Of a stretch of DNA of 58,091 nucleotides, positions 203 through 18,288 are shown in pieces. Position numbers and translations under genes: made by a program. The notes under the pieces were generated by a model, which was not told the origin of the DNA, made no database searches, and was given only the letters and a program-made list of their open reading frames with translations. Within the stretch, counting starts at the first letter, position 1, and every line of letters begins with the position of its first letter. Source of the stretch: Paracoccaceae bacterium. Lineage in GTDB: Bacteria > Pseudomonadota > Alphaproteobacteria > Rhodobacterales > Rhodobacteraceae. Location: contig JAFGTV010000065.1 of NCBI GenBank assembly GCA_016938875.1, positions 1 to 58,091 on the forward strand, written 5' to 3'.

Positions 203-913
203 TCAGCCGACCCATCGGGCCGCTCCGGCTGGGGGCGCCGGGACAAAGGGATGGACGGCGGGGCGCGGGGCGGGTCCGCCAACCGTGCCCGAAATGCAGC
301 CCGCGCGCAGGCTGAGCACCCGGTCCGCCAGGCGGCGGATCTCTTCGGCGGCATGCGAGATATAGATCATCGGCGCAGCGGTTTGCGCGCGCAGATCCTC
401 CAGCAGGGTCATCACCTCGTCGCGCCGCCCCGCGTCCAGCCCCGACAGAGGTTCATCCAGCAGCATCAGGTCGGGACGCGCCATCAGGGCGCGGGCGATG
501 GCGACGCGCTGCCGCTCGCCGCCCGACAACACGCCGGGGCGACGGTTCAACAGGGGGGCCAGGGCCAGCACCTCGACCAAACGGGCCTCGTGCGCGGGAT
601 CGAGCGCGCGCGCGCCATAGCGCAGGTTGCCCCGCACCGACATGTGCGGAAACAACAGCCCGTCCTGGAAAATCACCCCGATGCCGCGCCGCGCGGGCGG
701 CAGGTTGATCCCTGCCGCACTGTCGAACAGCACCCGGCCGTTCAGCGCGATGCGCCCCGCGTCGGGGCGGGTGTGCCCGGCCAGGCAGGAAAACAGCGTG
801 GATTTCCCCGCCCCCGACGGACCGACCAGCCCCAGCACCCCCTCGGCGGGCACGGCAAAGGCAACCTCAAGGGCGAAATCGCCCTGTTGGCGGCGGATCT
901 CTACGTCGATCAT
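203..913 (-). CDS. modC: Molybdate ABC transporter ATP-binding protein ModC, short form
   Basis: This is the ATPase that powers molybdate uptake together with ModB and ModA. The Walker A motif GPSGAGKST is at residues 31-39, the ABC signature LSGGERQR at 129-136, Walker B LMLLDEP at about 149-155, and the switch histidine in YISH follows. The predicted protein has 236 residues. Typical ModC proteins have about 350 because of a C-terminal TOBE (molybdate-binding) domain; here the ATPase domain is followed only by a short proline/alanine-rich tail. The start ATG at 913 overlaps the modB stop by 4 bases, so the two are translationally coupled. The reading frame continues upstream through modB, but that part is a shadow. 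Confidence 0.9.
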
Positions 914-1623
914 GCGCGCACCTCCTGCCAGTTCAACCGCCGCGCGATCCATTCCGAGGCCAGCAATGCCCCCCCCGCCAGCGCCAGCGACAACAGGCAC
1001 AGCCGCGCGGCCTGCGCCTCGCCGCCCGGGGTCTGGGTGACGGTGAACAGCGCCAGCGGCAGGGTCTGGGTCTGGCCGGGGATGTTGGCCGCAAAGGTGA
1101 TGGTCGCGCCGAACTCGCCCACCGCGCGGGCAAAGGCCAGGGTCATCCCCGCCAGGATGCCCGGCGTCATCAGCGGCAGGGTCACGGTCACGAACACCCG
1201 GATCTCGGATGCACCAAGCGAGCGCGCCGCGGCCTCCAGCCGGGGATCGGCGGCCTCGGCCGATTGCCGGATCGCGCGCACCAGCAGCGGAAACGCCACC
1301 ACCGCACAGGCCAGCACGACCCCGGCCTGCGAAAACGCCAGCCGCACCCCGAAAAGATCTGCCAGCGGCCCGCCCAGCGGCCCGTTGCGCCCGAACAGCA
1401 CAAGCAACAGGTAGCCCACCACCACCGGCGGCAGCACCAGCGGCAGGTGCACCGCCGCGTTCAGCAATGCCCGGCCCGGAAAGTCGCGCCGCGCCAACAG
1501 CCAGCCCAGCGCGATGCCCGGCACCAGCGACCACAGTACCGCCGCCACCGAGGCGCGCAGCGACAGGCCCAGCGCCTGCGCCTCGAACGGGCTGAGGCCC
1601 CGGAGATCGGCCAGACCGGTCAT
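910..1623 (-). CDS. modB: Molybdate ABC transporter permease ModB
   Basis: This is the inner-membrane channel subunit of the molybdate transporter, 237 residues, with several hydrophobic membrane segments from about residue 25 onward. The EAA loop that docks to ModC is visible as EAAARSLGASEIRVF, followed by TLPLMTPGILAG. It overlaps modA upstream and modC downstream by 4 bases each, so the three genes form one compact operon. Molybdate imported here would supply the iron-molybdenum cofactor made by the neighbouring nif genes. Confidence 0.93.
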   Translation of the reverse strand: MTGLADLRGLSPFEAQALGLSLRASVAAVLWSLVPGIALGWLLARRDFPGRALLNAAVHLPLVLPPVVVGYLLLVLFGRNGPLGGPLADLFGVRLAFSQAGVVLACAVVAFPLLVRAIRQSAEAADPRLEAAARSLGASEIRVFVTVTLPLMTPGILAGMTLAFARAVGEFGATITFAANIPGQTQTLPLALFTVTQTPGGEAQAARLCLLSLALAGGALLASEWIARRLNWQEVRA

Positions 1624-2360
1624 TTCGCGCCCGGCACCGTGAACCCATGCGCGGCAAAGATCGCGGCGGCCTCCTGGCCTTGCAGAAAGCTCAGGAAAGC
1701 GGCGGCGGCCTCGGTCTCGGCCCCCTGCCCGGTCGGGGCGATCAGGTAAAGGATGTCGGGCTGGGCCGTGTCGGGGATGTCCAGCACGACCTCGACCCCC
1801 TCGACCCCCAGCGCGTCAGAGGCATAGACCAACCCAAGGGCGGCCTCGCCGCTGGCCACGGCGGCCACGGTCGCCACGGTGTTGCGGGTGGGGATCAGCG
1901 CGCCCTCGATCCCGGCCCACAGGCCCAGGGTTTCCAGCGCGCCCTGGCCATAGCGCCCCACCGGCGCGGCAGCCGGATCGGCCATGGCGAACCGCGCGTC
2001 GCCCAGTGCCCCGGGCACCCCTGCCACGTCCAGCGGCCCGGCCCCGGCGGGCGCGATCAGCACCAGGCGGTTGGACAACAGCGCGACCGGTGCCCCCTCG
2101 GCCACCAGGCCGGCCCCGACCAGGTGGGTCATCCATTTGGGGTTGGCCGACAGGAACAGGTCCGCCGGTGCCCCCTGTTCGATCTGACGCGCCAGGGTGC
2201 CCGAAGCGGCGTAAGAGGTCGTCACCCCGCCGCCATAGGCCGCGATCGCCGCATCCAGCGCGCGCCCGGTCGACGCGGCCGCAAAGAGCAGCGGATCGGC
2301 CTGCGCCACCAGCGGCATCGACAGGGCAAAAACGGTCAGAACAGTCTTGATCGAACGCAT
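1620..2360 (-). CDS. modA: Molybdate-binding periplasmic protein ModA
   Basis: This is the substrate-binding protein of the molybdate transporter, 246 residues. A Sec signal peptide covers about residues 1-21 (MRSIKTVLTVFALSMPLVAQ then ADP), and the mature protein begins with LLFAAASTGRALDAAI, the usual ModA N-terminus with the first oxyanion-binding serine region. It is the first gene of modABC. The 124 bases between it and nifW must hold any separate promoter. I saw no sigma-54 box and no clear molybdenum-repressor (ATATA-type) palindrome there, so readthrough from nifW is possible. Confidence 0.93.
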   Translation of the reverse strand: MRSIKTVLTVFALSMPLVAQADPLLFAAASTGRALDAAIAAYGGGVTTSYAASGTLARQIEQGAPADLFLSANPKWMTHLVGAGLVAEGAPVALLSNRLVLIAPAGAGPLDVAGVPGALGDARFAMADPAAAPVGRYGQGALETLGLWAGIEGALIPTRNTVATVAAVASGEAALGLVYASDALGVEGVEVVLDIPDTAQPDILYLIAPTGQGAETEAAAAFLSFLQGQEAAAIFAAHGFTVPGAK

Positions 2361-2484: not shown

Positions 2485-2817
2485 CTATCGTGCCAGCGGT
2501 CGCAGCCCCGCCAGCGGGACCATGTTGCCGCGCGATTGGGTGTAGATCTTCAGCGCCTTTTGCGCGCGCGGGGTGGAGTCGGTGAAATCGGCATGGGCCT
2601 GTTTCAGCGCCTTGCGCGCGGCCAGGAAAATGCCGTCCTCGTCCAGCGCATCCAGATCGACCGCTGCCAGGTAATCCCCCATCCGTTTCATGACGTGCAG
2701 CCGGGCACGGTTCAGCACGGCGGCGTCATAGGGCAGCAGCAGAAAGGCAAAGATATCCTCGGCCGAGGACAGCGCACGCATCTGGTCGAGAACGCTTTGG
2801 GGGGCTTGGCAGGTCAT
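2485..2817 (-). CDS. nifW: Nitrogenase-protecting protein NifW
   Basis: A 110-residue protein matching NifW in length and pattern: an N-terminal [16 protein letters not shown] segment, a central [15 protein letters not shown] helix, and a C-terminal [18 protein letters not shown] segment. NifW binds the MoFe protein and is associated with its maturation or protection from oxygen. The start overlaps the nifV stop by 4 bases. It is the last gene of the iscA-nifU-nifV-nifW operon. Confidence 0.92.
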
Positions 2818-4019
2818 GGCAGGCTCCGTTCTTGGGGGGCGGGGGGGACAGGCTGGCGCGACAGCGCCTCGGCCCGGGCGATCAGAAGGACCAGGTCGGC
2901 AGGGGTCGCGGCCCGCTTTTCACGGCTGGCCCAATCGCGCAGCAGCGGCAGAACCGCGCGCGCGGTGCCGGGATCCGCCGGCAGGCCCGCAGCGGTCAGT
3001 GCGCCGGTCAGCGCGGCCAGGCCCGAATGCTTGCCCAGCACGATTTCACGGGCGCGACCGAACCGCGCCGGGCTGAGGGCCGGGGCCTCATACGTGTCGG
3101 GATCTTTCATCAACCCGTCGACATGGATGCCGCTTTCGTGGCTGAACGCATGGGTGCCGACGATCGGCCGCGTGGGGGAAAGCGGGCGGTTCGCGGCGCG
3201 CGCCACCAGGTCCGACAAGGCGCACAGCGCCTCTAGCGCGACGGCGCTGGGGCGGCCCTGCACGGCCAAGGCGGCGACCACCTGTTCCAGCGCGGCATTG
3301 CCTGCCCGTTCGCCCAGCCCGTTGACGGTCACCGACAGATGCGTGGCCCCGGCGCGCGCGGCGGCCAGGGTGTTGGCGGTGGCCATCCCCAGATCGTCAT
3401 GGGCGTGAAACTCCAGCGGCAGCGGCCCCTGCCCGACCAGCGCAACCAGCCGGTGCGCGTCGAACGGGTCCATCAGGCCCAGCGTGTCGGCCAACCGCAG
3501 CCGGATCGCCCCGGCCCCGGCCGCAACACGGCCGAGCTGCATCAAAAACCCCGGATCGGCGCGCGAGGCATCCTCGGCCCCGACGGACACGGCGAACCCG
3601 GCGTCGCTGGCCAGATCGACCAGGCGGGCGACCTCGGCCAGCGCCCAATCGCGGTTGCGGCCCAACTTGCCCGCCAGTTGCCGGTCCGAGGCGGGCACGG
3701 TCAGATGCACCCGCGTCAGTCCGGTCAACGCGGCCAGTTCCAGGTCGCCCTCGCGCAGGCGGCACCAGGCAACGCCCTGCGCGCGGGTCAACGCCGCGCC
3801 CGCCTCGCGGATCGCGGCGACCTCGGGCATGCCCATGGCGGGCACGCCCAGCTCGATCTCGGCCACGCCGGCGGCGTCCAGCGCCCGGGCGATCGCAACC
3901 TTTTCACCGGTCGAGAACGCAACGCCCGCCGCCTGCTCGCCGTCGCGCAGCGTGGTGTCGCAGATCAGCGCCGCGGCCGGGCCGGGGCGAAAGTCATGGG
4001 GGGCAAAGGGCGCGGTCAT
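2814..4019 (-). CDS. nifV: Homocitrate synthase NifV
   Basis: Condenses acetyl-CoA with 2-oxoglutarate to give R-homocitrate, the organic ligand of the iron-molybdenum cofactor. The DTTLRDGEQ motif of the isopropylmalate/homocitrate synthase family is at residues 21-29, the metal-binding [12 protein letters not shown] segment is in the middle, and [11 protein letters not shown] follows. The start at 4019 gives 401 residues, close to family length, and sits 11 bases after the nifU-like stop. The frame stays open further upstream, but that part overlaps the nifU-like gene and looks like shadow. In R. capsulatus nifS precedes nifV; here it is absent. Confidence 0.93.
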
Positions 4020-4030
4020 GGCGGATATCC

Positions 4031-4738
4031 TCAGCGCGCGGGGGCGGGGACGACGAAAACCGTGCGGCCCAGCGCCTCGGCCAGGCGCTTTTGCAGCCCG
4101 CCCAGGGTCAGCCCGGCCAGTTGGCAGCCCGAACACGCCCCCTTGAGGTGGACCCGCACCCGCGGGCCCGCGATGTCGTGCAACTCGACATCCCCGCCAT
4201 CGGCGCGAAAGACCGGGCGCATATCCTCCAGCACCGCCTCGACGGCGACGGTTTCGGCCTCTGGCGACAGGCGGGTGGCGCGGGTGCGGACGGGGGTTGT
4301 CGGTTTCAGCGGCGCGATGGCCAGCGGCTGGGCGCTGCGCGTGCCCTGGGCCGCGCGAAAGGCGGGGGGTTGGGCATAATCGGCCAGAGCCGCCCCCAGC
4401 GCCTGGGCGGCAACGCGCGCGGCAGAGCGATCCGCGTCGGGCAGACCGCCCAGAACGGTTTCGATCGCGTCCGCCGTGATCGTGCGGGCCTCGGCCAGGG
4501 GCTTGCCGATGACCATCTCGGTCAGCGCAGAGCCCGCCGCGACCTCGGGGCCGCCACCGGTCGTGTCGAACCCGGCCGCGGCGATAACCCCGCGTTCGAT
4601 CCGCAGCATCAGACGCAGCGCGTCGCCGGTGCGCAGCGATCCGCCCTCGCCCAGGGCATTGGCATCGGCCAGGGTGCCGCGATTGCGCGGGTTCACGAAG
4701 TGATCAGTCAGCGTGGGGGAATAATCCAGCATCACCAC
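4031..4738 (-). CDS. nifU: NifU-like protein with a cysteine-less IscU domain and a C-terminal Nfu domain
   Basis: A 235-residue protein with two recognisable parts. Residues 1-120 follow the IscU scaffold fold ([18 protein letters not shown], then [15 protein letters not shown]), but the three cluster-binding cysteines are gone: the usual CGD reads TGD (Thr37), the usual FGCGSA reads TGGGPE (Gly61-63), and the usual HCS reads SAA (about 105-107). Residues 160-235 are an Nfu domain with intact ACSGC (Cys202, Cys205). The central 2Fe-2S domain of Azotobacter NifU is missing, replaced by a Pro/Ala-rich linker. It lies between iscA and nifV. It may act as a cluster carrier through the Nfu domain rather than as an assembly scaffold. 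That role is inference; the missing residues are read directly. Confidence 0.85.
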
Positions 4739-4741
4739 CCC

Positions 4742-5065
4742 CTAGCAAAAGGATTTGCCGCAGCCGCACCCGGCATTGGCATTGGGGTTGTCAAAGACAA
4801 AGCCCGAGCTTTCGAGCCCGGCGACAAAGTCGATCGTGGTGCCCGCGAGATAGCCCTGGCTTTCGGGGTCGATCAGCACGGTAACGCCGCCCTCGGCCTC
4901 GACCACGGCATCGTCCGCCTCACGGGTGAGTTCCAGCGCCATGGTGTATTGCAGCCCGGCGCAGCCCCCCGACTGGACCATCACGCGAAGGCCCGCGATA
5001 GGTTGTCCGGCGCCCTGGATTGCGGTGGCCATGGCATCTCTGGCGGCTTGGGTTATCTGGATCAT
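4742..5065 (-). CDS. iscA: IscA/HesB-type iron-sulfur carrier of the nif cluster
   Basis: A 107-residue A-type carrier. The conserved cysteines are Cys35 (in SGGCAG) and Cys100 and Cys102 (in GCGCG), followed by an extra C-terminal Cys107. Proteins of this type, named IscN, nif-IscA or HesB, bind iron or Fe-S clusters and pass them to target proteins; in nif operons they support nitrogenase maturation. It is the first gene after a sigma-54 promoter at 5107-5122 and stands 3 bases before the NifU-like start, so the two are co-transcribed and probably work together. Confidence 0.92.
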   Translation of the reverse strand: MIQITQAARDAMATAIQGAGQPIAGLRVMVQSGGCAGLQYTMALELTREADDAVVEAEGGVTVLIDPESQGYLAGTTIDFVAGLESSGFVFDNPNANAGCGCGKSFC

Positions 5066-5106
5066 CGGTCATCTCCTGGCGAAGCTGGTCCCATGCCAGA
5101 AGGTTA

Positions 5107-5122
5107 AGCACGAAGCGTGCCA
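5107..5122 (-). promoter_or_regulatory. Sigma-54 promoter for iscA-nifU-nifV-nifW
   Basis: Read on the minus strand the sequence is TGGCACG-N4-GTGCT, against a consensus of TGGCAC(G/A)-N4-TTGC(A/T). The -24 element is perfect and the -12 element has one mismatch. It is about 40 bases upstream of the iscA start, in the same position as the other nif promoters of the window. Confidence 0.8.
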
Positions 5123-5207
5123 AGTTTGGTGCGCACGGTTTTTCAATGGGTTACGCAGCGCCCGCCGCAGACATGCAGGGCCGTGTCGCATTTGTCGGGG
5201 CGCGACT

Positions 5208-5223
5208 TGGCGGGTTTGCGACA
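5208..5223 (-). promoter_or_regulatory. Probable NifA binding site (imperfect) upstream of iscA
   Basis: The + strand reads TGG-CGGGTTTGCG-ACA. This is nearly identical to the perfect TGT-CGGGTGTGCG-ACA site before nifE, with one half-site base changed. It lies about 90 bases upstream of the -24 element, the expected distance for an enhancer-bound activator. Confidence 0.6.
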
Positions 5224-5343
5224 GCGCGCCACGGGGATCGTCCGTCCCCGGCCCACACGGGCGGGGCCCGCCGGGCCGACCTTGGGCCGGGCGCGCGCCG
5301 GGTATTTCGACCAGGGAAAAGGGCTTGGGGTGCTTGCCGGGGC

Positions 5344-5646
5344 TCAGCCGCGCTCGATCGTTTCGTGGGTCTGGCACCCCGAGGGGCAGACGCGCGCGCA
5401 GGCACCGCAGCCGATGCAGTTGTCAGCATCTGCGATGACCATGATCTTGCGCTCGATCTCGTCCTCGAATTCCTCATCGTCCAGCTCGACGATGTCGTCA
5501 TCCTCGGTGATCCCCTTGAGGGTCATGACGCCACGCGCGCAGACCTTGTAGCAGCGCCCGCAGCCGATGCATTTTCCCGCATCGATCGCGGTCAGAAATT
5601 CGGGCGTGTATTCGGTGCCGCCGCGGGTGAGGGCTGTGATCGGCAT
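5344..5646 (-). CDS. fdxB: nif-specific ferredoxin III, FdxB
   Basis: A 100-residue ferredoxin with two cluster motifs: CIGCGRCYKVC at residues 26-36 and CIGCGACARVC at 77-87, followed by an extra cysteine at 91. Between them is an acidic stretch (DDDIVELDDEEFEDE), typical of the nif ferredoxin III family (FdxB of R. capsulatus). It is the last gene of the nifENX operon, 3 bases after the DUF683 gene. The likely role is electron donation in nitrogenase function or cofactor assembly. Confidence 0.92.
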   Translation of the reverse strand: MPITALTRGGTEYTPEFLTAIDAGKCIGCGRCYKVCARGVMTLKGITEDDDIVELDDEEFEDEIERKIMVIADADNCIGCGACARVCPSGCQTHETIERG

Positions 5647-5649
5647 GGT

Positions 5650-5862
5650 TCAGACCTCCGCCTGGGAATTTTTCGCGGCCTTCAACTCTTGGCGCGCGGC
5701 GCTGAGCTCCTGGAACAGCGCATGGGTTTCGGCGGCAACCTGGGGGATTTTTTCCCAATCCACGGGCAGTTCTTCGGCCAAATCGTGCAGGTTCATCTTG
5801 GCGTTGGTGGCGCGCATCGACAGTTTCCTGACGCGCGTTTCAAGCTCTTCCAGGCTCATCAC
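5650..5862 (-). CDS. DUF683 / CCE_0567-family small nif protein
   Basis: A 70-residue, mostly helical protein rich in Glu, Leu and Lys (starts MMSLEELETRVRKLSM, ends with a Gln/Ala/Lys-rich helix). Small proteins of this family sit between the NifX-associated gene and fdxB in many nif clusters, as here. Its biochemical role is unknown; a two-helix hairpin is likely from the pattern. The start could be either of the two adjacent Met codons. Confidence 0.82.
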   Translation of the reverse strand: MMSLEELETRVRKLSMRATNAKMNLHDLAEELPVDWEKIPQVAAETHALFQELSAARQELKAAKNSQAEV

Positions 5863-5910
5863 GGAATCCTCGGTTCGGGGTCTGCGGGGTCGGGCGGATA
5901 CGGGGGCGGC

Positions 5911-6384
5911 TCAGGCTTGGGCGGCGTCGGGAAAGCGGGCCACCATTTCGGCGGCATCCGCGGTCATTTTCTCGCCGGCCTCGGCCAGCTTTTCGAATGT
6001 TTCAAAGCCAAAGCGGTGGATGTCGCGGACATGTTTGGACACCACCACCAACCGCCCCGACAGCAGCACGATCCGGCCAAAGCCCTCGTGGCTGATCTTG
6101 GACATCTGCGCGGCCATGGCGCCGGTGCGCCGTTCCAACAGCAGCGCGATCGCGTCATAGAATTTCTCGACCCGCCACAGGGTGTCGGGGTCGGGATCGC
6201 AGATGATCGGGATCTCGCGGCGTTCCTCGGGGGTGACGATGAAGTCGGCCAGCAGATCGGCGTCGGGTTTGTCGTCCCAACTGCCATGGGTATCCTCGGC
6301 GCGGATCACGGCGACCAGCTGTTTCAGGAAATCGCTGGCGGGCAGCGCGCCGCCGCGGGGCAAGGTGTCGGGCTGGGCGGTCAT
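5911..6384 (-). CDS. NifX-associated nitrogen fixation protein (DUF269)
   Basis: A 157-residue protein with the family's typical core: FLKQLVAVIRAEDTHGSWD near the N-terminus, an acidic DPDPDTLWRVEKFYDAIA segment, and RIVLLSGRLVVVSKHVRDIHRFGF near the C-terminus. This family is encoded directly after nifX in most diazotroph clusters and is thought to assist cofactor trafficking. The start overlaps the nifX stop by 4 bases. Confidence 0.9.
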   Translation of the reverse strand: MTAQPDTLPRGGALPASDFLKQLVAVIRAEDTHGSWDDKPDADLLADFIVTPEERREIPIICDPDPDTLWRVEKFYDAIALLLERRTGAMAAQMSKISHEGFGRIVLLSGRLVVVSKHVRDIHRFGFETFEKLAEAGEKMTADAAEMVARFPDAAQA

Positions 6385-6824
6385 TCGGACATGTCCTCGG
6401 CGTAGTCGATGGCGAAATCGGGGGCCGAACGGCCCAGCACCTTGCGCAGGAAGGGGGGCGGCGTGCCGCCCAGCATGTCCCGGACCTGGGTCAGCACATC
6501 GGCGATGGGTTCGCGTTCCTTGCGCTTGATCGGGTGGATGCCCGCGCGCACGACCTTGGCCGCCGAGGGTCCGCCGATGGCCAGCACAAAGAGCAACGCG
6601 CAGCCGGTCAGCGCCTCGACCTTGGGGGTGATACGGTCGTCGATGCTGTCATGTTCGCCTTGCTGGGCGGTCACGTCGTCGAATTCCAGCACCTCGACCA
6701 GGCGGGCGGTCGTGGTCGTCACCTCGTAGAGCGCGAATTTCCGGGCAGAGCCGAAATGCGCATCGAGATTTTCCATGTCATTGGTAGCAATGGCAATTTT
6801 CAGCGGTTTTTCGTTGTCGGTCAT
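6381..6824 (-). CDS. nifX: Nitrogenase cofactor carrier NifX
   Basis: A 147-residue member of the NifX/NafY fold, which binds and carries NifB-co and other iron-molybdenum cofactor precursors between NifB and NifEN. The core IAIATNDMENLDAHFGSARKF is near the N-terminus, followed by EHDSIDDRI and the ALLFVLAIGGPSAAKVVRAGI segment. The same fold forms the C-terminal domain of NifB in this window. The start at 6824 gives the family length and sits 13 bases after the nifN stop; the frame extends upstream only as shadow of nifN. Confidence 0.93.
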   Translation of the reverse strand: MTDNEKPLKIAIATNDMENLDAHFGSARKFALYEVTTTTARLVEVLEFDDVTAQQGEHDSIDDRITPKVEALTGCALLFVLAIGGPSAAKVVRAGIHPIKRKEREPIADVLTQVRDMLGGTPPPFLRKVLGRSAPDFAIDYAEDMSE

Positions 6825-6837
6825 GGGTTCCTCCGGC

Positions 6838-8232
6838 TCAATGAGGCGCAGTCTGCGGGCGGTCATGCTCGAACTCCTGCTCGATGGGGGCGGCGCCGAA
6901 ATCCTGCGGCTGGGCGTGGTGCGGGTGGGCGAGGACGGCATTCGCGACCTCGAACAGGTACGCGCGGGTGCCGCGATAGCCCACGCGGCAGATATCCTGC
7001 GCGCCCAGGCGATCATTGATCGGAAAGCCTGCGCGGATCAGCGGCAGCTGCAACGCCGCAGCGGCGTGGCGGCCATGGGCATGGCTGATCAGCAGCGTTG
7101 CGCCGCCAATGCGCGCGCCCTCCTCCAGATCGCCCAGGTCGCCCAGGATCGCGGTCTGGCACGGGATCTGCGCGACGATCGGATTGGCGGGCGAGGTCGT
7201 GACGCAGGACACCGCCCGCGCCCCCATCCCCGCCAGGGCAGAACTCAGCGCATAGGCCAGGTCGGGGTCGGCGGCGATGGCGTATTTCAACCCGCCGGTC
7301 TGAAAATGGGCGTCCAGCATCGCGTCTTGCAGGCGCGCGCGATCGCGTTTGATCGCGGGGGGGGCATCGGCGGTGCCCGCCACGTTCATCAGCGCGCTGA
7401 CAAACCCATCGACCGCCGTCAGCCCGGTAAGCGCGGGAAAGACCTGAACCGGCATATGCCCACGCCGGCCCAACAGCTCGGCCGCGCCGCGCATGCTTTC
7501 GCCGATGGCAAAGGTCACGGCCGATTGCGCCATGGCCGGGAGCGCGTCAAGCGGGGTGCCGCCCAGGGATTTGCCGGACCAATCCTCGGCCAGGTGCCCG
7601 TCAAGCGAGCCCGACAGATCCGGCAGCACGATCGGTTTCAGCCCGAACGAGCGGATCAGCCGGGTGATCTCCTCGATATCGGCGGGGGTCAGGTTGGCCG
7701 AGGGCAGCACGTTGACCTGACGCAGGTCGGCGTCGCGCCACATCGGGTCAATGTCGGGCACCAGCGCGTCGATGATCGCGGTGACGGCCTTGGCCCAGCC
7801 ATCCTCCAGCGCGCCGTCGAAATCGGGGGTCGAGGCATAGACCACCTTCAGGTCCGCGAAATCCGGGCGGCGGGCCATGATCCCGGCCACCTCGCCGGCC
7901 ACATCCTCGCCGCGGGTTTCGGTCAGCGCGGTCGAGGCGATGCCGATGAACCGGGGATCGGCGCGTTTTTTCAGGTTGGCGATGGCCTCTTCGATCTGCT
8001 CGGCGCCGCCCAGGATGGTCGAGACCTCGTTCATCGCGGTGGTTTGCAGCGGGATCGCCTCGCGGAAATGGCGCACCATGTGGACCATGGCAAAGGCGGT
8101 GCAGCCCTGCGCGCCGTGAAACAACGGCACCGCGCCCTCGATGCCCAGATAGGCCATGGCAGCCCCCAGGGGCGCGCTGGATTTAAGCGGGTTGGTGGAC
8201 AGCGCGCGGCGCGGACGGGTCAGGCGGGCCAT
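6838..8232 (-). CDS. nifN: Nitrogenase cofactor assembly scaffold beta subunit NifN
   Basis: A 464-residue NifK-like subunit of the NifE2N2 scaffold on which NifB-co is matured with molybdenum and homocitrate. The cluster-binding HGAQGC motif places Cys44, followed by AFAMVHMVRHFREAIPLQTTAMNE cut into typical NifN pattern, and STALTETRGED where NifK would carry another cluster ligand. The start ATG at 8232 is 4 bases after the nifE stop; upstream in-frame codons overlap nifE and are not used. Confidence 0.95.
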   Translation of the reverse strand: MARLTRPRRALSTNPLKSSAPLGAAMAYLGIEGAVPLFHGAQGCTAFAMVHMVRHFREAIPLQTTAMNEVSTILGGAEQIEEAIANLKKRADPRFIGIASTALTETRGEDVAGEVAGIMARRPDFADLKVVYASTPDFDGALEDGWAKAVTAIIDALVPDIDPMWRDADLRQVNVLPSANLTPADIEEITRLIRSFGLKPIVLPDLSGSLDGHLAEDWSGKSLGGTPLDALPAMAQSAVTFAIGESMRGAAELLGRRGHMPVQVFPALTGLTAVDGFVSALMNVAGTADAPPAIKRDRARLQDAMLDAHFQTGGLKYAIAADPDLAYALSSALAGMGARAVSCVTTSPANPIVAQIPCQTAILGDLGDLEEGARIGGATLLISHAHGRHAAAALQLPLIRAGFPINDRLGAQDICRVGYRGTRAYLFEVANAVLAHPHHAQPQDFGAAPIEQEFEHDRPQTAPH

Positions 8233-8236
8233 GGGA

Positions 8237-9712
8237 TCAATCCTCGAAATCGTTGGGGTCGTTGGCGATGCCGGATACCGGGCAGCGGTCCTTGAGGCGC
8301 GGGCGGTGGCCGGCAAAGGGGCGGGCGACCTGCCACGGGGCGGGCGCGCGCACGTCGGCCCACATCGGGTTGTTCAACGACCGGTCGATGGCACGCACCA
8401 GGTCGACCATGCCCATGTAACCGGCATAGGGTTCGTGCTTTTCCTGGTTCACGTCGATCCAGGGCACGCGCGCCTTGAGCGCCACGAACTGGCTGCGCGC
8501 CCCCGACATCAGCACATCCGCCCCCGAGGCACGCAGCGTGGCGTACATCTCTTTCGGGGCCATGTTTTCGAACATGTGGGTGTCGGTCCCCATGATCTCG
8601 ATCACGCGCGCCTTGTCCTCTTCGGTGGCCTTGCGCACGCTCGTGCCCACGACCTCCATCCCCAGTTCCTGAAGCGCCGAAACCACAGACCAGCTTTTGT
8701 GCCCGCCGGTATAAAGCAGCACGCGCTTGCCCTGGACGCGGGGGCGATAGGGTTCCAGGGCGGCGCGGGCCTTGGCCTCTTGTTCGGCGATCAGGGCCTC
8801 GCAGCGGTCGATCAGATCGGGGGCCGCGCCACGCTCCACCAGCATTGCACACATGGTGCGCAGCGCCTGGGACGTGTCGGAAATGCCGTAGAACGACCCC
8901 TCGAAGAACGGGATGCCATAGTTTTCCTCAAGCTTGCGCGCCAAGCCCAGCAGCGCGTGCGAGCAGATCAGCATGGTCAGCCGGGCCCGGTGCATCTGAG
9001 CCACCTGTTTGTAACGCGCGTCCGCCGAGAGAGAGCCGAGGATACGGATGCCCAGGCTGTCCAACAGCGGTTTGATCTGCCACAGCTCGCCCGACAGATT
9101 GTAATCGCCGATGATGTTGATGTCGGTATCGGTGGTGGTTTCGGGTTCCATCGTGCCGATGACATGGCGGAACATCATCTCGCCGCCCAGTTTGCACCCC
9201 AGGTTCTTGGACCCGGCAAAGCCGGGGACATCGACAGGGATCGCGGGGGTGCCAAAGGCCTCGGTCGCGGCCTTGCACACGGCGGCGATGTCGTCGCCGA
9301 TCATCGAGGTCACGCAGGTCGAATAGACGAAAACGGCGGGCGGGGCGTGCTTTTCCACGATCTCGCGGATCGCGCGGTAAAGCTTCTTCTCGCCGTGGCC
9401 CATGACGATGTCGAGTTCGGTCAGGTCGGTGGTGAACCCGGTCTTGTAGATCATCGGCCCCGAAGAGGCAGAGCCGCGATTGTCCCAGGCGTTGCCCTCG
9501 CAGGCCAGGGGCGCATGGACCAGGTGGGCCACGTCGACGATGGGTTGCAACGTGATCTTGGCCCCGTCAAACGCACAGCCCCCCGCCGCGGCGCCGGGGG
9601 TCAGCGGCTTGGCGCAGCCCTTCTTGCGGTCGGCGGCGGACTTGGCGCGGTTGGTGGCGCAGGCGGGCTCGTGAAAGGCATCCTGAACGGTTTGTTTGAG
9701 GGCGTCGGACAT
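8237..9712 (-). CDS. nifE: Nitrogenase cofactor assembly scaffold alpha subunit NifE
   Basis: A 491-residue NifD-like subunit of the NifEN scaffold. Cluster-ligand regions are visible as PLACEGNAWDNRG and VYSTCVTSMIGDD, and the cysteine-rich N-terminus (PACATNR, KKGCAKPL, GGCAFDGA) is typical. The central INIIGDYNLSGELWQIK matches the NifE/NifD family. It is the first gene of nifENX-DUF269-DUF683-fdxB, controlled by a perfect sigma-54 promoter about 33 bases upstream and a perfect NifA site beyond it. Confidence 0.96.
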   Translation of the reverse strand: MSDALKQTVQDAFHEPACATNRAKSAADRKKGCAKPLTPGAAAGGCAFDGAKITLQPIVDVAHLVHAPLACEGNAWDNRGSASSGPMIYKTGFTTDLTELDIVMGHGEKKLYRAIREIVEKHAPPAVFVYSTCVTSMIGDDIAAVCKAATEAFGTPAIPVDVPGFAGSKNLGCKLGGEMMFRHVIGTMEPETTTDTDINIIGDYNLSGELWQIKPLLDSLGIRILGSLSADARYKQVAQMHRARLTMLICSHALLGLARKLEENYGIPFFEGSFYGISDTSQALRTMCAMLVERGAAPDLIDRCEALIAEQEAKARAALEPYRPRVQGKRVLLYTGGHKSWSVVSALQELGMEVVGTSVRKATEEDKARVIEIMGTDTHMFENMAPKEMYATLRASGADVLMSGARSQFVALKARVPWIDVNQEKHEPYAGYMGMVDLVRAIDRSLNNPMWADVRAPAPWQVARPFAGHRPRLKDRCPVSGIANDPNDFED

Positions 9713-9744
9713 TTGGGTTTGCTCCGCGTTGCTATTGAATACGA

Positions 9745-9760
9745 AGCAAAGAGCGTGCCA
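9745..9760 (-). promoter_or_regulatory. Sigma-54 promoter for nifENX-fdxB
   Basis: Read on the minus strand: TGGCACG-N4-TTGCT, a perfect match to the -24/-12 consensus. It is about 33 bases upstream of the nifE start. Confidence 0.92.
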
Positions 9761-9857
9761 AGCCAGATGCCAGGCCGAGCAAGGTATTTTATATCAATGG
9801 GTTGCGGTGGTGGATGTGCGCCGGGAAAATACGCGAAAACGGCCCGAATGACCGGTT

Positions 9858-9873
9858 TGTCGGGTGTGCGACA
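9858..9873 (-). promoter_or_regulatory. NifA binding site (UAS) upstream of nifE
   Basis: Perfect TGT-N10-ACA (TGT-CGGGTGTGCG-ACA on the + strand), about 100 bases upstream of the nifE -24 element. It lies between the nifK terminator hairpin and the nifE promoter. Confidence 0.85.
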
Positions 9874-9913
9874 TCGGGTTTGGCCAAGGATGCAGGGCCC
9901 GCCCCCCACAAGA

Positions 9914-9941
9914 AACGGCCGACGCTTTCGCACCGGCCGTT
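9914..9941 (-). terminator. Hairpin terminator of nifHDK
   Basis: On the minus strand the arms AACGGCCG and CGGCCGTT flank an inner part that also pairs (two G-T pairs, then GC/GC), closing on a GAAA tetraloop: a 12-pair stem in all. It starts 46 bases after the nifK stop. The following U-run is weak, so termination may be partial. Confidence 0.7.
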
Positions 9942-9986
9942 CCAGATTGCATCACCATGCGGGACGCGGACAGACGCCCCCGCCCC

Positions 9987-11525
9987 CTAGCGGGTCAGGT
10001 CGAACGACATGTCGGTTTCGCCCAGGGTGCCGGTGTCGCTGTCGAGCTTGTCAAAGATCGTATCCAGCAGCTTGACCAGAACCGTCAGCCCGCCCTGATA
10101 GCCCCAGGTGGGGAAGCGGTGGTGGTGGTGGCGATCAAAGATCGGGAAGGTCAGCCGGATCAGCGGGATGCCCAGGTCGCGTTCCAGGTATTTGCCGTAG
10201 CTGTTGCCGATCAGCATATCCGTCGGTTCGGTCGCCAGGATCGAACGCAGGTGCCACAGATCCTTGCCGGCCCAGACCTGGCAGTTCGCGCCAAAGGGCG
10301 AGCTGTCCAACAGCGCCTGCATCTTCTTGGCCCAGGCCTTGGTGCCGTTGGTGGCCAGGCAGTGGGTCGGCTCGCCGCCGGTTTCCATCACGAAGCGGGC
10401 CATCGCATAAACGAAGTCCGGGTCGCCATAGATCGCGTAGGTCTTGCCGTGCAGATGCGACTGGCTGTCGGCCATCGCGTCGACCAGGCGGCCACGCTCC
10501 AGCGTCAGGCTGTCGGGGATCGGCTTGCCGGTCAGCTCGCTGATCTTCATCAACAGCTCGTCGGTGCCCTGGATACCCATCGGATAGTGGAAGGCGGCCG
10601 TTTCCTGACCCACCTCGGCACACAGCGCCAGCGTCTTCTTGGTGCAGTATTCCTGCATCGAGATCGTCGCCTTGGCGTTGACCGCCTTTTTGGCATCCTC
10701 CAGCTTGGTGCCGCCGTCATACATGCGGAACTCGCCATCCGAGGGGGTGTCATAGACATCGGACACATCCGACAGGATGGTGGCCTTGACGCCCATCTCG
10801 CCCAGCATCCGGTTCAACTCGCGGATGTTGCCGACCGCGAAACCGTCAAAGCCGGGGATGATGTTGATCGAGGTATTTTCCTTTCGCTTGGCGTCCTTCC
10901 AGAAATGGCCGAGGATCCCCTTTTGCATGTTGTCATAGCCATCCACATGGCTGCCGACAAAGGCCGGGGTGTGCGCAAAGGGCACGTCGAAATCGGCGGG
11001 AACGCTTTCCTTTTCCTTGGCTTGCAGGATGAAGGAGTTGAGGTCGTCGCCGATCACCTCGGCCATGCAGGTGGTCGAGACCGCGATCATCTTGGGGGAA
11101 TAAAGCGCATAGGTGTTGGCCAGGCCGTCCACCATGTTCACCAGCCCGCCGAACACCGCCGCATCCTCGGTCATCGACGAGGACACCGCCGAGGCCGGTT
11201 CCTTGAAGTGGCGCGACAGGTGCGAGCGGTAATAGGCCACGCAGCCCTGCGAGCCGTGCACAAAGCTCATCGTGCCCTCGTAGCCGGCGGCGGCGAACAC
11301 CGCGCCCAGCGGCTGACAGGCCTTGGCGGGGTTGATGGTCAGCGCGGTGCGGGCCAGGTTCTTTTCGCGGTAGTCCCAGGACTTGGTCCAGTCCAGGATT
11401 TCCGTCACCTGCGGCGCGGGCGCGGCGTTTTCGTACTTGGCCCGCTTGTTGTCGAGCATTTCCTTGTATTCGGGTTCGTGGAACAGCTTGGCGTGGTCCA
11501 GCACCTTGTCTGCCGATTGGGGCAT
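9987..11525 (-). CDS. nifK: Nitrogenase molybdenum-iron protein beta chain NifK
   Basis: The beta subunit of dinitrogenase, 512 residues. Its P-cluster cysteines are Cys70 ([10 protein letters not shown]), Cys95 ([10 protein letters not shown]) and Cys153 ([12 protein letters not shown]), spaced as in Azotobacter NifK. The residue after Cys153 begins the conserved MAEVIGDDL stretch. It is the last gene of nifHDK. A GC-rich hairpin separates it from nifD, and a GAAA-loop hairpin follows its stop. Confidence 0.98.
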
Positions 11526-11585
11526 GTCTCAAATCCTTCTACGGGCCGTCCGCATTCCGGGACGCGGCCGAAAGGTTGATGGGAA

Positions 11586-11605
11586 GCGGGGGCCAGCGCC
11601 CCCGC
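11586..11605 (-). other. Stem-loop between nifD and nifK
   Basis: A perfect 8-pair GC stem (GCGGGGGC / GCCCCCGC) with a 4-base loop in the 91-base nifD-nifK spacer. It may tune stability of the upstream mRNA or reduce readthrough into nifK. There is no U-run, so it is unlikely to be a full terminator. Confidence 0.65.
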
Positions 11606-11616
11606 CCGAGGGGCCG

Positions 11617-13086
11617 TCAGGCCGATTTCTTCCAGGGCGCGTCGAACATGCCCCAAACCGGGTTGTTGATCGCGAGATCCATATCGCGGGCAAAGATCGC
11701 AAAGCCATCATAGCCGTGATAGGGGCCCGAATAGTCCCAGCTGTGCATCTGGCGGAACGGGATACCCATTTTCTGCGTCGGGTATTTCTCCTTGATGCCA
11801 GAGCCGACCAGGTCGGGGCGCATGGTCTCGATGAATTTTTCCAGCTCATAACCGGTCACGTCATCATAGATCAGCGTGCCTTCCTTGATGTGCTCGCCGG
11901 TGCGCTTGTAATCGTCGCCATGGGCGAACTCGTAGCCCGTGCCGACAATTTCCATGCCCAGGTCGTGATAGGCGGTGGCGACGTGGCGCGGACGCAGGCC
12001 GCCCACATACAGCATCACCGATTTACCCTCGAGGCGCGGCTTGTATTTCGCCAGGATCTCGTCGACCAGCGGCTGATACTTGGCGATCACCGCCTCGGCA
12101 TTGGCCTGGATGGTCTCGTCGAACTTGGCGGCGATGGCGCGCAGGGACGCGGCGATCTGGCTGGGCCCGAAGAAGTTGTATTCCATCCACGGCACGCCGT
12201 GCTTTTCCTCCATGTGCCGGCAGATATAGTTCATCGACCGGTAGCAGTGGATCAGGTTCAGCTTGGCCTTGGGGGCGTTTTCCATCTCGGCCAGCGTCGC
12301 GTCGCCGGACCACGACCCGACCACGTTCAGGCCGATCTCTTCCAACAGGATGCGCGACGACCAGGCGTCGCCACCGATGTTGTAGTCGCCGATGATGTTC
12401 ACATCATAAGGGCTGACCTCGTAGTCAGAGCCTTCGCCCTCCAGCACCCAGTCACGGATCGCATCGTTGGCGATGTGGTGACCCAGGCTTTGCGAAACGC
12501 CGCGGAACCCCTCGCACCGCACCGGCACGATGGTCTTGCCGATCTCGGTCTTTTTCTTGCGGGCCACGGCCTCGATATCGTCACCGATCAGGCCGATGGG
12601 GCATTCCGACTGGACCGAAACCGCCTTGGCCAGCGGGAACAGCTCGTTGATTTCGTCGATCGTCTTTTCCAGCTTCTTGTCGCCGCCGAAAACGATGTCC
12701 TTTTCCTGGAAATCAGTGGTGAACTGCATCGTCACAAAGCTGTCCACGCCGGTGGTGCCGGTGTAGTAATTCCGGCGCTGGGACCAGGAATAGTGGCCGC
12801 ATCCGACCGGGCCGTGGCTGATATGGACCATGTCCTTGACCGGGCCCCAGACCACGCCTTTGGAACCGGCATAGGCGCAGCCGCGGATCGTCATGACGCC
12901 GGGCACGGATTTCACGTTGGATTTCACCGTGTCGCATTTCGACACGATTTCGGTGTCTCCTTCGGCCGCGGGTTGTGCCACACCCAGATGACGGGCGCGT
13001 TTCTTTGCAGCTTTGGCGGGATAGGCGGAGAGGACCTCTTCGATCAGCTTTTCGGGCGCGATCGGATCGGGAATGTCTTTTGCCAT
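11617..13086 (-). CDS. nifD: Nitrogenase molybdenum-iron protein alpha chain NifD
   Basis: The alpha subunit of dinitrogenase, 489 residues, which holds the iron-molybdenum cofactor. P-cluster cysteines are Cys70 (TIRGCAYAG), Cys96 ([10 protein letters not shown]) and Cys162 ([11 protein letters not shown]). The cofactor ligands are Cys281 (NLIHCYRSM) and the histidine in [14 protein letters not shown] near the C-terminus. All are present, so a catalytically competent Mo nitrogenase is expected. It follows nifH after a strong intergenic hairpin. Confidence 0.98.
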
Positions 13087-13128
13087 CTGTCTGGCTCCTT
13101 CGGGCGGGGTGGATGCGGGCGCAAGGGG

Positions 13129-13151
13129 CGGGCCGGCGGATCGCCGGCCCG
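13129..13151 (-). other. Strong stem-loop between nifH and nifD
   Basis: A 10-pair GC stem (arms CGGGCCGGCG and CGCCGGCCCG) with a three-base loop, 8 bases downstream of the nifH stop. Hairpins here in other diazotrophs protect the nifH transcript from 3' decay or cause partial termination, giving more NifH than NifDK. The structure is read from the sequence; the role is inference. Confidence 0.75.
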
Positions 13152-13158
13152 TCAGGGG

Positions 13159-14052
<894 letters not shown>

Positions 14053-14392: not shown

Positions 14393-15229
14393 TCAGGCGC
14401 TTGGGATCGACAGCAGATCGTTCACCGCGGCCAGGGGCAGGTCCAGCCGCTCGATCCCCAGCTCATCGAGAAAGCGCAGCTCCATCCGGGTCAGCGGGCC
14501 CTCGATCACCGCGACATGGCCAGCGGCCGAGCGTTTGGCGATCTGGCGCGCGAACAGGCGCAGCATCTGGTCGTCGAACCGGCAGCCCAGGAACAGGAAC
14601 GGGCGGCCCGTGCGGCGCACCTGGACCTCGGCGGGGATCGGCGACTGGATGTCGATCTCTGTCAGCACCTCGACATAGTCGCTGTCGGAAATCAGGAACG
14701 CCTTGTCCTGGCGGATCACCCCGTGGGGTTTGTAGATCAGCATCTGCCAGTCGGGATCGGGCTGTTCGCCGACCAGCATTTCCCGGGCGTCGTAGGCGCG
14801 GGTCCAGATCTCGGACCACTCGCCGGTGCGGCTGACGCCCTGCACCCAGCCCCAGTTGCCCTGTCCCTGGGCCATGGCGGCCTCGAGGATGCCACTGTCG
14901 TACCAGGCATCGACCACCATCGGCGGGCGCACCCGGGCCAGCCAGCGGTGCAGCGGCGCAGGGTCCGGGTGTTCGGCAAAGACCTCGTGCAGGATCGCAT
15001 CCAGGGTTCTGCGAAAGCGGCGGCTTTCGACGAATTGCGCCACCGACCACAGGTTGCCGCTGACCCGTTTGGGCACCCGGACACGGGCCTCGATCGCGGC
15101 GCACAGCTCAGGGGGCGAGGCAGGCTGCGACCCACCGCCCAGCGCCGCCACCCCTGCGCCCAGATAGGGCACGCGGGTTCCGGTGGCGACCTCGTCCAGC
15201 AGGTCGGCCAGGCGGGTTTCAGCGCCCAT
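14393..15229 (-). CDS. SIR2-like protein of the nif cluster
   Basis: A 278-residue protein with a SIR2-family pattern: TRVPYLGAGVA near the N-terminus (nucleotide-binding glycine loop), KPHGVIRQDK in the middle (a typical SIR2 KxHG element), then SDSDYVEVL and FLFLGCRFDDQMLRLF towards the end. Related SIR2-like genes lie near nifZ or nifT in other diazotrophs; the function is unknown. SIR2 folds bind NAD and may deacylate or hydrolyse it. The start at 15229 is 5 bases after the nifT stop; the frame extends upstream through nifT as shadow. It ends the nifB operon, followed by a UUCG-loop terminator. Confidence 0.8.
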   Translation of the reverse strand: MGAETRLADLLDEVATGTRVPYLGAGVAALGGGSQPASPPELCAAIEARVRVPKRVSGNLWSVAQFVESRRFRRTLDAILHEVFAEHPDPAPLHRWLARVRPPMVVDAWYDSGILEAAMAQGQGNWGWVQGVSRTGEWSEIWTRAYDAREMLVGEQPDPDWQMLIYKPHGVIRQDKAFLISDSDYVEVLTEIDIQSPIPAEVQVRRTGRPFLFLGCRFDDQMLRLFARQIAKRSAAGHVAVIEGPLTRMELRFLDELGIERLDLPLAAVNDLLSIPSA

Positions 15230-15233
15230 TGTC

Positions 15234-15443
15234 CTATTCCACCGAGAGGCGGCGCGCCTCGACCGTGATCGGCAGTTTCGGCGCCTCGTCAAAGGCCGGC
15301 ATCTCGAAGGTCCAGCCGTTGGACAGTTTCGCCCAGCCGCCCCAGAGGCCGGGTTTCTCGGATTCGACGACGATCTCTTCGAGGTCTTTCTTGGGGACAT
15401 AGACCTCCATGCCCTTGGGGGTTTCGCGCACCATGATCTTCAT
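15234..15443 (-). CDS. nifT: Nitrogen fixation protein NifT (FixU)
   Basis: A 69-residue protein matching the NifT/FixU family: MKIMVRETPKGMEVYVPKKD at the start, GGWAKLSNGWTFEMP in the middle and a short C-terminal strand. The function is not established, and mutants in other species fix nitrogen normally. The start overlaps the nifZ stop by 4 bases. Confidence 0.92.
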   Translation of the reverse strand: MKIMVRETPKGMEVYVPKKDLEEIVVESEKPGLWGGWAKLSNGWTFEMPAFDEAPKLPITVEARRLSVE

Positions 15444-15718
15444 GTCGTCATCTCCTTGTCCAGGCTGTCGAGTTCGTCCTTGCGCATGCCGATGATGGAC
15501 TGGCTGTCCACGAATTCGACCGCGTAGATGTAAAATTGGTTCAGGAAGGTGCCGATGTCGCGGACATAGCCGACCTCGCCCTTTTTCACGACGAACTCAC
15601 CAACCTCGGAGCCGGGCACGGTGCCGTCGTTGCGGATATGTTTGCGCGCGCGGACCTTTTCGCCGGGGTCAAAGGCGGGGGGGCCGTAAATCTCGATCTC
15701 GCGGTCATCGGTCGACAT
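15440..15718 (-). CDS. nifZ: Nitrogen fixation protein NifZ
   Basis: A 92-residue NifZ protein: a PPAFDPGEKVRARKHIRNDGT start, GEFVVKKGEVGYVRDIG in the middle and the FLNQFYIYAVEF core. NifZ acts with the chaperone system in forming the second P-cluster of the MoFe protein. The ATG at 15718 is chosen over an upstream Met seven codons earlier; it overlaps the 3' end of the LRV gene by 14 bases in a different frame. Confidence 0.92.
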   Translation of the reverse strand: MSTDDREIEIYGPPAFDPGEKVRARKHIRNDGTVPGSEVGEFVVKKGEVGYVRDIGTFLNQFYIYAVEFVDSQSIIGMRKDELDSLDKEMTT

Positions 15719-16478
15719 CGCTGTCCCTTTCGGTTGCAAGTTCGGCTAGCCGCTCGGTGGCGGCCTGGCGCACGGGGGCGTCGGGATCGGTCAGCATCCG
15801 CGCGGCCAGGGCGGCATCAGCGCGTTCGGCCACGGCGTGGCGCACGCGGATATCGGGATCCTCGGCCAGGCGGACCAGGGCATCGGGGGCCAGACGCGTG
15901 GCGACGGTGCGGCGCACCTGGGGTTCGGGGTCCGCAATCAGGTGGTCCAGCCAGCGCGGCGGAACCCGGCCCGCGACCACCGCGCGGATCTCGGGGTCGG
16001 CATCAAGCGCAAGCAGCGGCAACAGCCCCGGATCGGCGCGGCGCGCGGCGATCAGCCGGACATAGGGGTCGTCATCGCCCAAGAGCGGCGCCATCTCTGC
16101 CGGCGGCAGACGCCAGGCCACGGCGGCGCGCACCTGCCGGTCGGGATCGCGCAGGCACAGCCGCGCATGGCCCACCGGCAGACGCAGGGCCGCGATTGCG
16201 CGCACCGCCGGGTCGGGATCGGACAGCAAACGCGGCAGACGGAACAGCGTGGCCACCCGCGCCGCCGCAGCGCGGGTTTCGAAATAGGGATCATTCAGGC
16301 AGCGATCCGCATCCGCCGGGTTGATCAGGAAGAACCGGCCGATCCGGGGGGCATATCGGTCAAAGGCGCAGGCCCAGCCCGGGCCGCATTGCCCCTGGGC
16401 AAGGTAGGTCGTGAACCGGCAGGTGGCGCAGTCGATCGCGCGTCCCTGCCAGTCCACCGGATCCGGGCCTTCGGGCAT
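15705..16478 (-). CDS. 4Fe-4S leucine-rich-variant (LRV) repeat protein
   Basis: A 257-residue protein. The N-terminus carries four cysteines, Cys17, Cys20, Cys31 and Cys37 (CATC then QCGPGWAC), the pattern of the LRV Fe-S domain first seen in the Azotobacter vinelandii LRV protein. From about residue 85 there are roughly seven 24-residue repeats of the type DPDPAVRAIAALRLP and DPEPQVRRTVATRLA, forming a right-handed alpha/3-10 helical solenoid. It probably serves as a protein-interaction surface with a redox-active cluster; no defined function is known. It lies between fdxN and nifZ in the nifB operon. Confidence 0.88.
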   Translation of the reverse strand: MPEGPDPVDWQGRAIDCATCRFTTYLAQGQCGPGWACAFDRYAPRIGRFFLINPADADRCLNDPYFETRAAAARVATLFRLPRLLSDPDPAVRAIAALRLPVGHARLCLRDPDRQVRAAVAWRLPPAEMAPLLGDDDPYVRLIAARRADPGLLPLLALDADPEIRAVVAGRVPPRWLDHLIADPEPQVRRTVATRLAPDALVRLAEDPDIRVRHAVAERADAALAARMLTDPDAPVRQAATERLAELATERDSDVDR

Positions 16479-16485
16479 GATCCGG

Positions 16486-16680
16486 TCAGACCGGAACGCA
16501 GGTATCGGGCACCGGGCAGACGGCGACGCATTGCGGCGTTTCGAACTGCCCCTCGCATTCGGTGCATTTGTCCGGGTCGATGATATAGGTGTCGCCCTTG
16601 AACGTGATCGCGGCATTGGGGCATTCGAATTCACAGGCGCCGCAGACGGTGCATTGGCTGGTGATGATCTTGAGGGCCAT
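16486..16680 (-). CDS. fdxN: nif ferredoxin I, FdxN (2[4Fe-4S])
   Basis: A 64-residue ferredoxin with [11 protein letters not shown] at residues 10-20 and a second motif CTECEG..CVAVC with the longer spacing typical of FdxN. In R. capsulatus FdxN is the main electron donor to nitrogenase, reduced by the Rnf complex; it can also serve NifB. It directly follows nifB with a 27-base gap and is co-transcribed with it. Confidence 0.94.
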
Positions 16681-18183: not shown

Positions 18184-18219
18184 GGGGCTCTCTCCTTTTC
18201 GGTGTCTCCCTGTGGGTGT

Positions 18220-18235
18220 AGCAATGACCATGCCA
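18220..18235 (-). promoter_or_regulatory. Sigma-54 promoter for the nifB operon
   Basis: Minus strand TGGCATG-N4-TTGCT, a full match to the -24/-12 consensus core (GG and GC correctly spaced). It is about 37 bases upstream of the nifB start and decides that start over longer alternatives. Confidence 0.9.
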
Positions 18236-18288
18236 AGCCAGTGGGGCCCTGTTTGTGCGGCTTTGCGGGGCTGTGATGGGGGGGCGAC

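Follow-up and report, generated by a model that had tools for sequence, protein, structure and literature searches.

A NifU without scaffold cysteines and the absence of nifS in nitrogen-fixing Rhodovulum

The nif cluster of Rhodovulum encodes a NifU protein that has lost every cysteine ligand of its IscU-like scaffold domain together with the central 2Fe-2S domain, and it contains no gene for the cysteine desulfurase NifS. The usual account of NifU and NifS is that they build clusters specifically for nitrogenase, and both are often included when nitrogenase components are engineered into plants or yeast. We find that NifD and NifS trees give an order for these losses, that the ligand-free domain is still constrained, and that a search of the source genome finds neither another U-type scaffold nor a NifS. 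The Rhodovulum NifU is probably now only a carrier of clusters made by another system of the cell. For the pathway as a whole, we lean towards a reading in which SUF acts as the builder of the clusters and IscN and the Nfu domain as their carriers, and docking on nitrogenase clients falls to the dead IscU-like domain.

The sequence analysed, called the window here, is a stretch of 58,091 nucleotides (contig C21) from a 2.9 Mb genome that is 95% complete in 70 contigs. The named loci closest to it are those of R. kholense, R. adriaticum, R. marinum, R. visakhapatnamense and R. bhavnagarense. Since all are Rhodovulum, we take this to be the source genus. The features needed below are as follows.

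2485-2817, minus strand: nifW (Pfam NifW, 3.9e-26)
2814-4019, minus strand: nifV, homocitrate synthase, from ATG 4019 (TIGR02660, 478 bits, cut-off 463)
4031-4738, minus strand: nifU-like gene, 235 residues from GTG 4738; degenerate IscU-like domain, linker and Nfu domain
4049-4243, minus strand: Nfu domain of NifU, residues 166-230 (Pfam NifU, 1.3e-17), CxxC intact
4244-4354, minus strand: linker of NifU, residues 129-165, replacing the central 2Fe-2S (BFD-type) domain; no domain match
4355-4726, minus strand: IscU/NifU_N-fold domain of NifU without cluster ligands, residues 5-128 (Pfam, alignment, AlphaFold2 and Foldseek, dN/dS)
4742-5065, minus strand: iscN, A-type Fe-S carrier, directly upstream of nifU (Pfam Fe-S_biosyn, 2.2e-19; TIGR00049, 118 bits, cut-off 58.8)
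5344-14034, minus strand: rest of the nif cluster, namely fdxB, a Rop-like gene, DUF269, nifX, nifN, nifE, nifK, nifD and nifH

The names fdxB, Rop-like and DUF269 come from family models; nifX, nifN, nifE, nifK, nifD and nifH are what we take these genes to be from reading the open reading frames by eye. The order around nifU is fdxB - iscN - nifU - nifV - nifW. In the alignment, a conserved ATG at 4732 (MLDY...) is a more probable start for nifU than the upstream GTG at 4738. Only 11 bp separate the nifU stop from the nifV ATG, so there is no room for nifS at its usual place, and a NifS query gives zero tblastn matches at E <= 1e-8 in the whole 58 kb window. The preliminary description, made from the window alone, was thus right that nifS is missing from it. 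It had also proposed IscA and the Nfu domain as carriers, and the motifs of both are intact: the C...CGC triad of iscN is present, as it is in the Rhodobacteraceae loci listed, and so is the CxxC of the Nfu domain.

Several other genes adjoin this region. Those at 203-2360 (minus strand), directly after nifW, presumably encode the molybdate transport proteins ModA, ModB and ModC, and a ModA match near nifW occurs also in G397, G239, G231 and G219. An LRV/HEAT-repeat protein with an FeS4 domain adjoins a radical SAM protein (15705-16535 and 16708-18360, minus strand); by its place the latter would be NifB, and it carries a C-terminal NifX-like Nitro_FeMo-Co domain. A SIR2-like protein (SIR2_2, 2.4e-18) lies inside the nif cluster at 14393-15400 (minus strand), and the nif proteome of R. 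capsulatus, in the available part of the report, includes a SIR2 family protein (PMC6925177).

Pfam places a NifU_N domain at residues 6-123 of the nifU open reading frame (1.9e-28) and a NifU/Nfu domain at residues 166-229 (1.3e-17), with no domain between them. The accessible text of PMC13382767 gives the ligands of Azotobacter vinelandii NifU as Cys35, Cys62, Cys106, Cys272 and Cys275. When the window protein is aligned to canonical NifU, Cys35 is replaced by Thr37 (codon 4630-4628), Cys62 by Gly62 (codon 4555-4553) and Cys106 by Ala106 (codon 4423-4421), and no cysteine occurs anywhere in the N domain. The three cysteines that bind a cluster or zinc in IscU and SufU are thus all absent. 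The lysine of the LPPEK motif is replaced by Asp103; D39 is kept. Where canonical NifU has its central 2Fe-2S domain, a linker of 37 residues is found. The Nfu motif is present as Cys202 (4135-4133) and Cys205 (4126-4124), and the C-terminal CxxC is found in all 27 full-length rows of our NifU alignment; the 28th row, from G365, stops at a contig end ahead of the Nfu domain. The earlier claims that all three scaffold cysteines are lost, that the central domain is absent and that the Nfu CxxC is intact all hold. Against the TIGR02000 (NifU_proper) model the protein scores 174.3 bits, below the cut-off of 273.3.

The same state is found throughout the genus. NifD is present in 15 of 16 Rhodovulum genomes and the disarmed NifU in the same 15, the remaining genome (G396) having neither; the five named loci are not counted in addition to these. 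None of the 15 nif-bearing genomes has a cysteine at any of the three ligand sites, where the residues are Thr (11) or Ser (4), Gly (12) or Ser (3), and Ala (13) or Ser (2), respectively. Five of them carry a single cysteine elsewhere in the N domain. Agreement among 15 genomes excludes sequencing error at the three sites, and together with the dN/dS values given below it led us to reject error or pseudogene formation as an explanation. The spacing between nifU and nifV ranges from -37 to +11 bp in all 15, with no nifS between. In G406, nifU lies about 15 kb from nifE, a layout that agrees with the split nif arrangement reported for R. tesquicola in the available text of PMC9412634.

No match at the level of NifS identity was found in any of the 16 Rhodovulum genomes, the best matches being 38-43% identical to the query. 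The lowest E-value (3e-67, 38% identity, in G395) comes from a further enzyme of the class I desulfurase type; in G394 there is a second one, interrupted by a stop. In G405 a piece of 74 residues reaches 49% identity and lies in the same 360-residue frame as the 40% match of that genome. In the 2.9 Mb source genome, a second NifU_N domain was not found at E <= 0.001. As the window NifU is the sole protein with this domain, no IscU or SufU was found. A search for a complete NifU or NifS outside the window thus came back empty. There is a very slim chance that a normal NifU and NifS lie in an unassembled part of the genome and that the window gene is a secondary copy. An assembly of 70 contigs at 95% completeness leaves space for this, but the 14 further nif-bearing Rhodovulum genomes are 99-100% complete, and each of them yields a single NifU match (E <= 1e-10) and nothing at the NifS level.

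SufBCD is the only general cluster builder found in the genome. Contig C33 carries a SUF operon that encodes an Rrf2 regulator, a class I desulfurase, SufB, a SufC-type ABC ATPase, SufD and SufS, interspersed with YbjQ-like and Yip1 proteins. The class I desulfurase reaches 241 bits in the NifS model, below the cut-off of 531, and is therefore not called NifS. The preliminary description had named ISC or SUF as the general source of clusters; with a SUF operon present and no IscU found in the genome, the choice narrows to SUF.

Published acetylene reduction rates are 278, 523 and 4066 nmol/mg/h for R. tesquicola, R. steppense and R. strictum, respectively, and R. strictum has a second nitrogenase operon (PMC9412634, available text). 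In R. tesquicola, nifU, nifV and nifW carry consecutive tags, and the word nifS is absent from that text (PMC9412634). The activities in these three species indicate that nitrogenase works in Rhodovulum.

Sequence scans point to a further change in these nif regions. CX4CX2CX5C is the NifQ-type motif. No open reading frame of at least 100 residues contains it in the window, where the gap between fdxB and iscN is 5066-5343, or in 14 other Rhodovulum stretches (L150-L163), fdxB being outside the stretch in L151, L154 and L158. The motif is found near fdxB and iscN in 9 of 11 other nif-bearing genera of the family and in all three additional genomes from the G051 genus; of the two genera without it, G339 meets a contig end and G231 has a rearranged cluster. 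The A. vinelandii NifU gives a cluster to NifQ, according to the portion of PMC11605450 available. Loss of nifQ, as scanned in the Rhodovulum nif regions, may be linked to the change in NifU. One could go further and regard NifU as dispensable and on its way out, with SUF and IscN maturing nitrogenase directly. The stepwise loss across the clade and the lack of a NifQ motif in the Rhodovulum regions read would suit such a course, but nifU is retained in all 15 nif-bearing genomes and missing from the single Rhodovulum without nif genes, and its Nfu domain has a dN/dS of 0.17 in the genus; we consider it highly improbable.

Related genera show intermediate states. In a family sample of 394 genomes (393 genera), NifD was detected at E <= 1e-60 in 14: two Rhodovulum, G147 (73% complete, with a NifD fragment), which was left out of the nifU comparison, and 11 others whose nifU region could be read. 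The order nifU-nifS-nifV is found in all 11 others, with nifS filling a gap of 1168-1272 bp, and their NifS proteins are 57-68% identical to the query, compared with 38-43% at best in Rhodovulum. Four (G219, G231, G239 and G313) keep the three cysteines and the central domain, which contains four further cysteines in the alignment. Six (G051, G091, G111, G252, G339 and G386) have lost at least two ligands, and in the alignment they lack the central domain as well; G091 is the exception among them in keeping the equivalent of Cys106. The tblastn alignments of three more genomes from the G051 genus, read by eye, also show no cysteine at the ligand sites. The last genome, G365, keeps Cys62 alone, in a nifU split over two contigs (L144 and L145). 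The central domain of this transitional NifU is shortened and retains cysteine pairs, with C-x-x-C instead of the canonical C-x-C. No further NifU was found at E <= 1e-10 around G091 (one genome, itself) or in the G365 genus (13 genomes). Fifty-nine plasmid records match the NifU query; among the 30 of these listed, none matches over 80% of it.

In the ligand-poor group, both the catalytic cysteine loop and the PLP lysine of NifS are intact. Ligand loss and nifS loss happened separately. The preliminary description had treated them as one event; each loss is real, but six genera are ligand-poor with an intact nifS. Of 75 loci belonging to other groups (L050-L124, a non-random set because peptide patterns taken from the window protein served to select it), 74 have an N-terminal match, and all 74 keep the three cysteine motifs. 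This led us to reject chance divergence of a fast-evolving family. We also looked at the C-terminal F.P.YA tail found in most alpha-, beta- and gammaproteobacterial NifS proteins read. It is absent from the seven NifS (L138-L143 and L145, G365 included) that are paired with ligand-poor NifU. As a marker of NifU docking it was dropped, because many NifS of other phyla that stand beside a three-cysteine NifU also lack it.

The order of the losses rests on a midpoint-rooted NifD tree (26 rows) and a NifS tree (13 rows), with a single genome standing for each of the 11 other genera; a NifU tree was not used for this because its long branches meet. A partial Roseomonas row was dropped from the NifD tree, as were G420, G422 and G423, rejected as NifD for their length (408-413 residues) and a very long branch that had spoiled a first tree. 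The NifD tree places the canonical four and G365 on one side (100/96), and on the other Rhodovulum (86/85) with G339 (91/87) and G252 (97/90). In the NifS tree, G365 is the first to branch in the ligand-poor group (100/99, then 98/96). Taking the canonical forms as ancestral, the ligands and the 2Fe-2S domain were lost first and nifS last. The ancestor of this group of Rhodobacteraceae diazotrophs would have lost the IscU-like ligands and deleted the 2Fe-2S domain with NifS still present, and nifS would have been lost later, in the ancestor of Rhodovulum.

Is the ligand-free domain maintained? Within Rhodovulum the N domain has a median dN/dS of 0.25, with a maximum of 0.50 among 105 pairs, compared with medians of 0.17 for Nfu and 0.70 for the linker; the corresponding N-domain and Nfu values are 0.10 and 0.33 in the canonical four and 0.47 and 0.44 in the six ligand-poor genera, where Nfu thus shows no special constraint, and all these comparisons are rough as the groups differ in depth. 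Relative to NifD, and with the same roughness, the distance ratio of the N domain is 1.2 in canonical proteins and 3.6 in both the ligand-poor genera and Rhodovulum; for Nfu it is 4.7, 2.6 and 2.7, respectively. On these rough figures, the N domain is under a constraint that is about threefold weaker but still present, and lowest in the intermediate genera. The earlier view that the domain is kept and not decaying is therefore half sustained: it is under purifying selection (dN/dS 0.25), but it has diverged about three times as much against NifD (3.6 versus 1.2).

The 15 Rhodovulum proteins share the same residue at 60 of the 124 positions of the N domain. Invariant residues that do not occur at the same positions in the canonical four include R20, R36, R104, S105 and D120. 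Of these, R36, R104 and S105 occupy or adjoin the former ligand sites, and R104 occurs also in three of the six ligand-poor proteins. No cysteine or histidine is newly invariant in the Rhodovulum N domain, and we rejected replacement ligands at the old cluster site on this ground. A relaxed N domain also fits a mere folding remnant. Nfu would then be the working part, and the IscU-like domain a structural leftover that serves solubility or dimerisation, binds no partner and is kept since its misfolding would harm Nfu. The roughly threefold extra divergence relative to NifD after ligand loss, the dN/dS of 0.47 in the ligand-poor genera and the loss of the LPPEK motif agree with this. We nevertheless regard it as rather unlikely: so many invariant positions, dN/dS values of at most 0.50 and newly fixed residues around the old cluster site, absent from the canonical four, argue for more than a remnant.

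The predicted structure is consistent with a retained fold. AlphaFold2 gives a pLDDT of 83 overall and above 90 over most of the N domain, and the first Foldseek hits are IscU proteins, with an rmsd of 0.9 Å to 4eb5_C. The ligand-free domain is thus predicted to keep the IscU fold, which the input alignment with canonical NifU partly imposes. The nearest solved structure (4eb5) shows an IscU-IscS complex, and the SUF operon includes a class I desulfurase. Both observations would suit a dead domain that docks on the SUF side, on this desulfurase or on SufBCD, to load Nfu and not to reach nitrogenase clients. The LPPEK loop and the loops that hold the cysteines, which have a role in meeting a desulfurase, have changed in Rhodovulum; we consider docking on the SUF side improbable.

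As Rhodovulum has neither a U-type scaffold site nor a NifS, its nitrogenase must obtain clusters from elsewhere. Two known systems suggest how they might travel. Nfu domains bind and transfer [4Fe-4S] clusters, and the degenerate A-type domain of NfuA, which has lost a cysteine, targets apo-proteins (PMC8593673, available part). The Rhodovulum protein resembles NfuA in fusing a carrier-family domain without cysteine ligation to an Nfu domain. It differs in that its dead domain is U-type, with the IscU fold, and in that its gene belongs to a nif cluster; against the NfuA model TIGR03341 it scores 14.9 bits, on the Nfu part only. By analogy, the Rhodovulum Nfu domain may bind [4Fe-4S] and the dead domain may serve in targeting. 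In Paenibacillus polymyxa, a diazotroph whose nif cluster has no nifU/nifS pair, SufCDB is needed for nitrogenase maturation and the Nfu-like YutI is proposed to deliver the clusters; unlike Rhodovulum, which keeps a disarmed, nif-linked NifU, it has no nifU in the cluster, and a nifS-like gene elsewhere is involved (PMC8038749, available part).

Based on NfuA targeting and the Paenibacillus precedents, we propose a route from SUF through IscN and Nfu to nitrogenase. SufBCD, supplied by the SUF desulfurases, would make the clusters and pass them to IscN and to the CxxC of Nfu, and NifU would hand [4Fe-4S] clusters to the apo-nitrogenase proteins as a dedicated carrier. The sulfur could also come from other desulfurases, such as the class I enzyme of the SUF operon or the further one in G395. 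The ligand-free domain would be retained for docking or targeting, a use like that of the degenerate A-type domain in NfuA. A more specific version, which we offer only tentatively and think may well not hold, makes the old cluster site a conserved Arg36-Thr/Ser37...Arg104-Ser105 patch that docks nitrogenase clients. An NfuA-like carrier would then have been built independently on the IscU fold, and the living genera would preserve the steps of a move from NIF to SUF.

The comparison with an A. vinelandii-type NifU summarizes what has changed. The place in iscN-nifU-[nifS]-nifV, the N-terminal family and the C-terminal Nfu CxxC are common to both; Cys35, Cys62 and Cys106, the central 2Fe-2S domain and NifS are missing in Rhodovulum. 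We found no description of the loss of NifU ligands or of nifS in Rhodobacteraceae in the open-access papers searched, as covered by their titles and the openings of their abstracts. Earlier studies that may bear on the finding include that of Meijer and Tabita in 1992 on R. sphaeroides nifUSVW and that of Dos Santos in 2004 on the domains of NifU. On gene order alone, as given in the available part of PMC6925177, Rhodobacter sphaeroides (nifUSVW) and R. capsulatus (iscN-nifU1-nifSVW) share the operon order of Rhodovulum, with nifS retained in these two and missing from Rhodovulum.

An entire genus of diazotrophs thus appears to manage without the scaffold function of NifU and without NifS, and its near relatives hold intermediate states. 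A minimal, probably SUF-fed route to nitrogenase becomes directly testable, and the Rhodovulum protein provides a natural example in which a dead scaffold domain has perhaps been reused as an adaptor.
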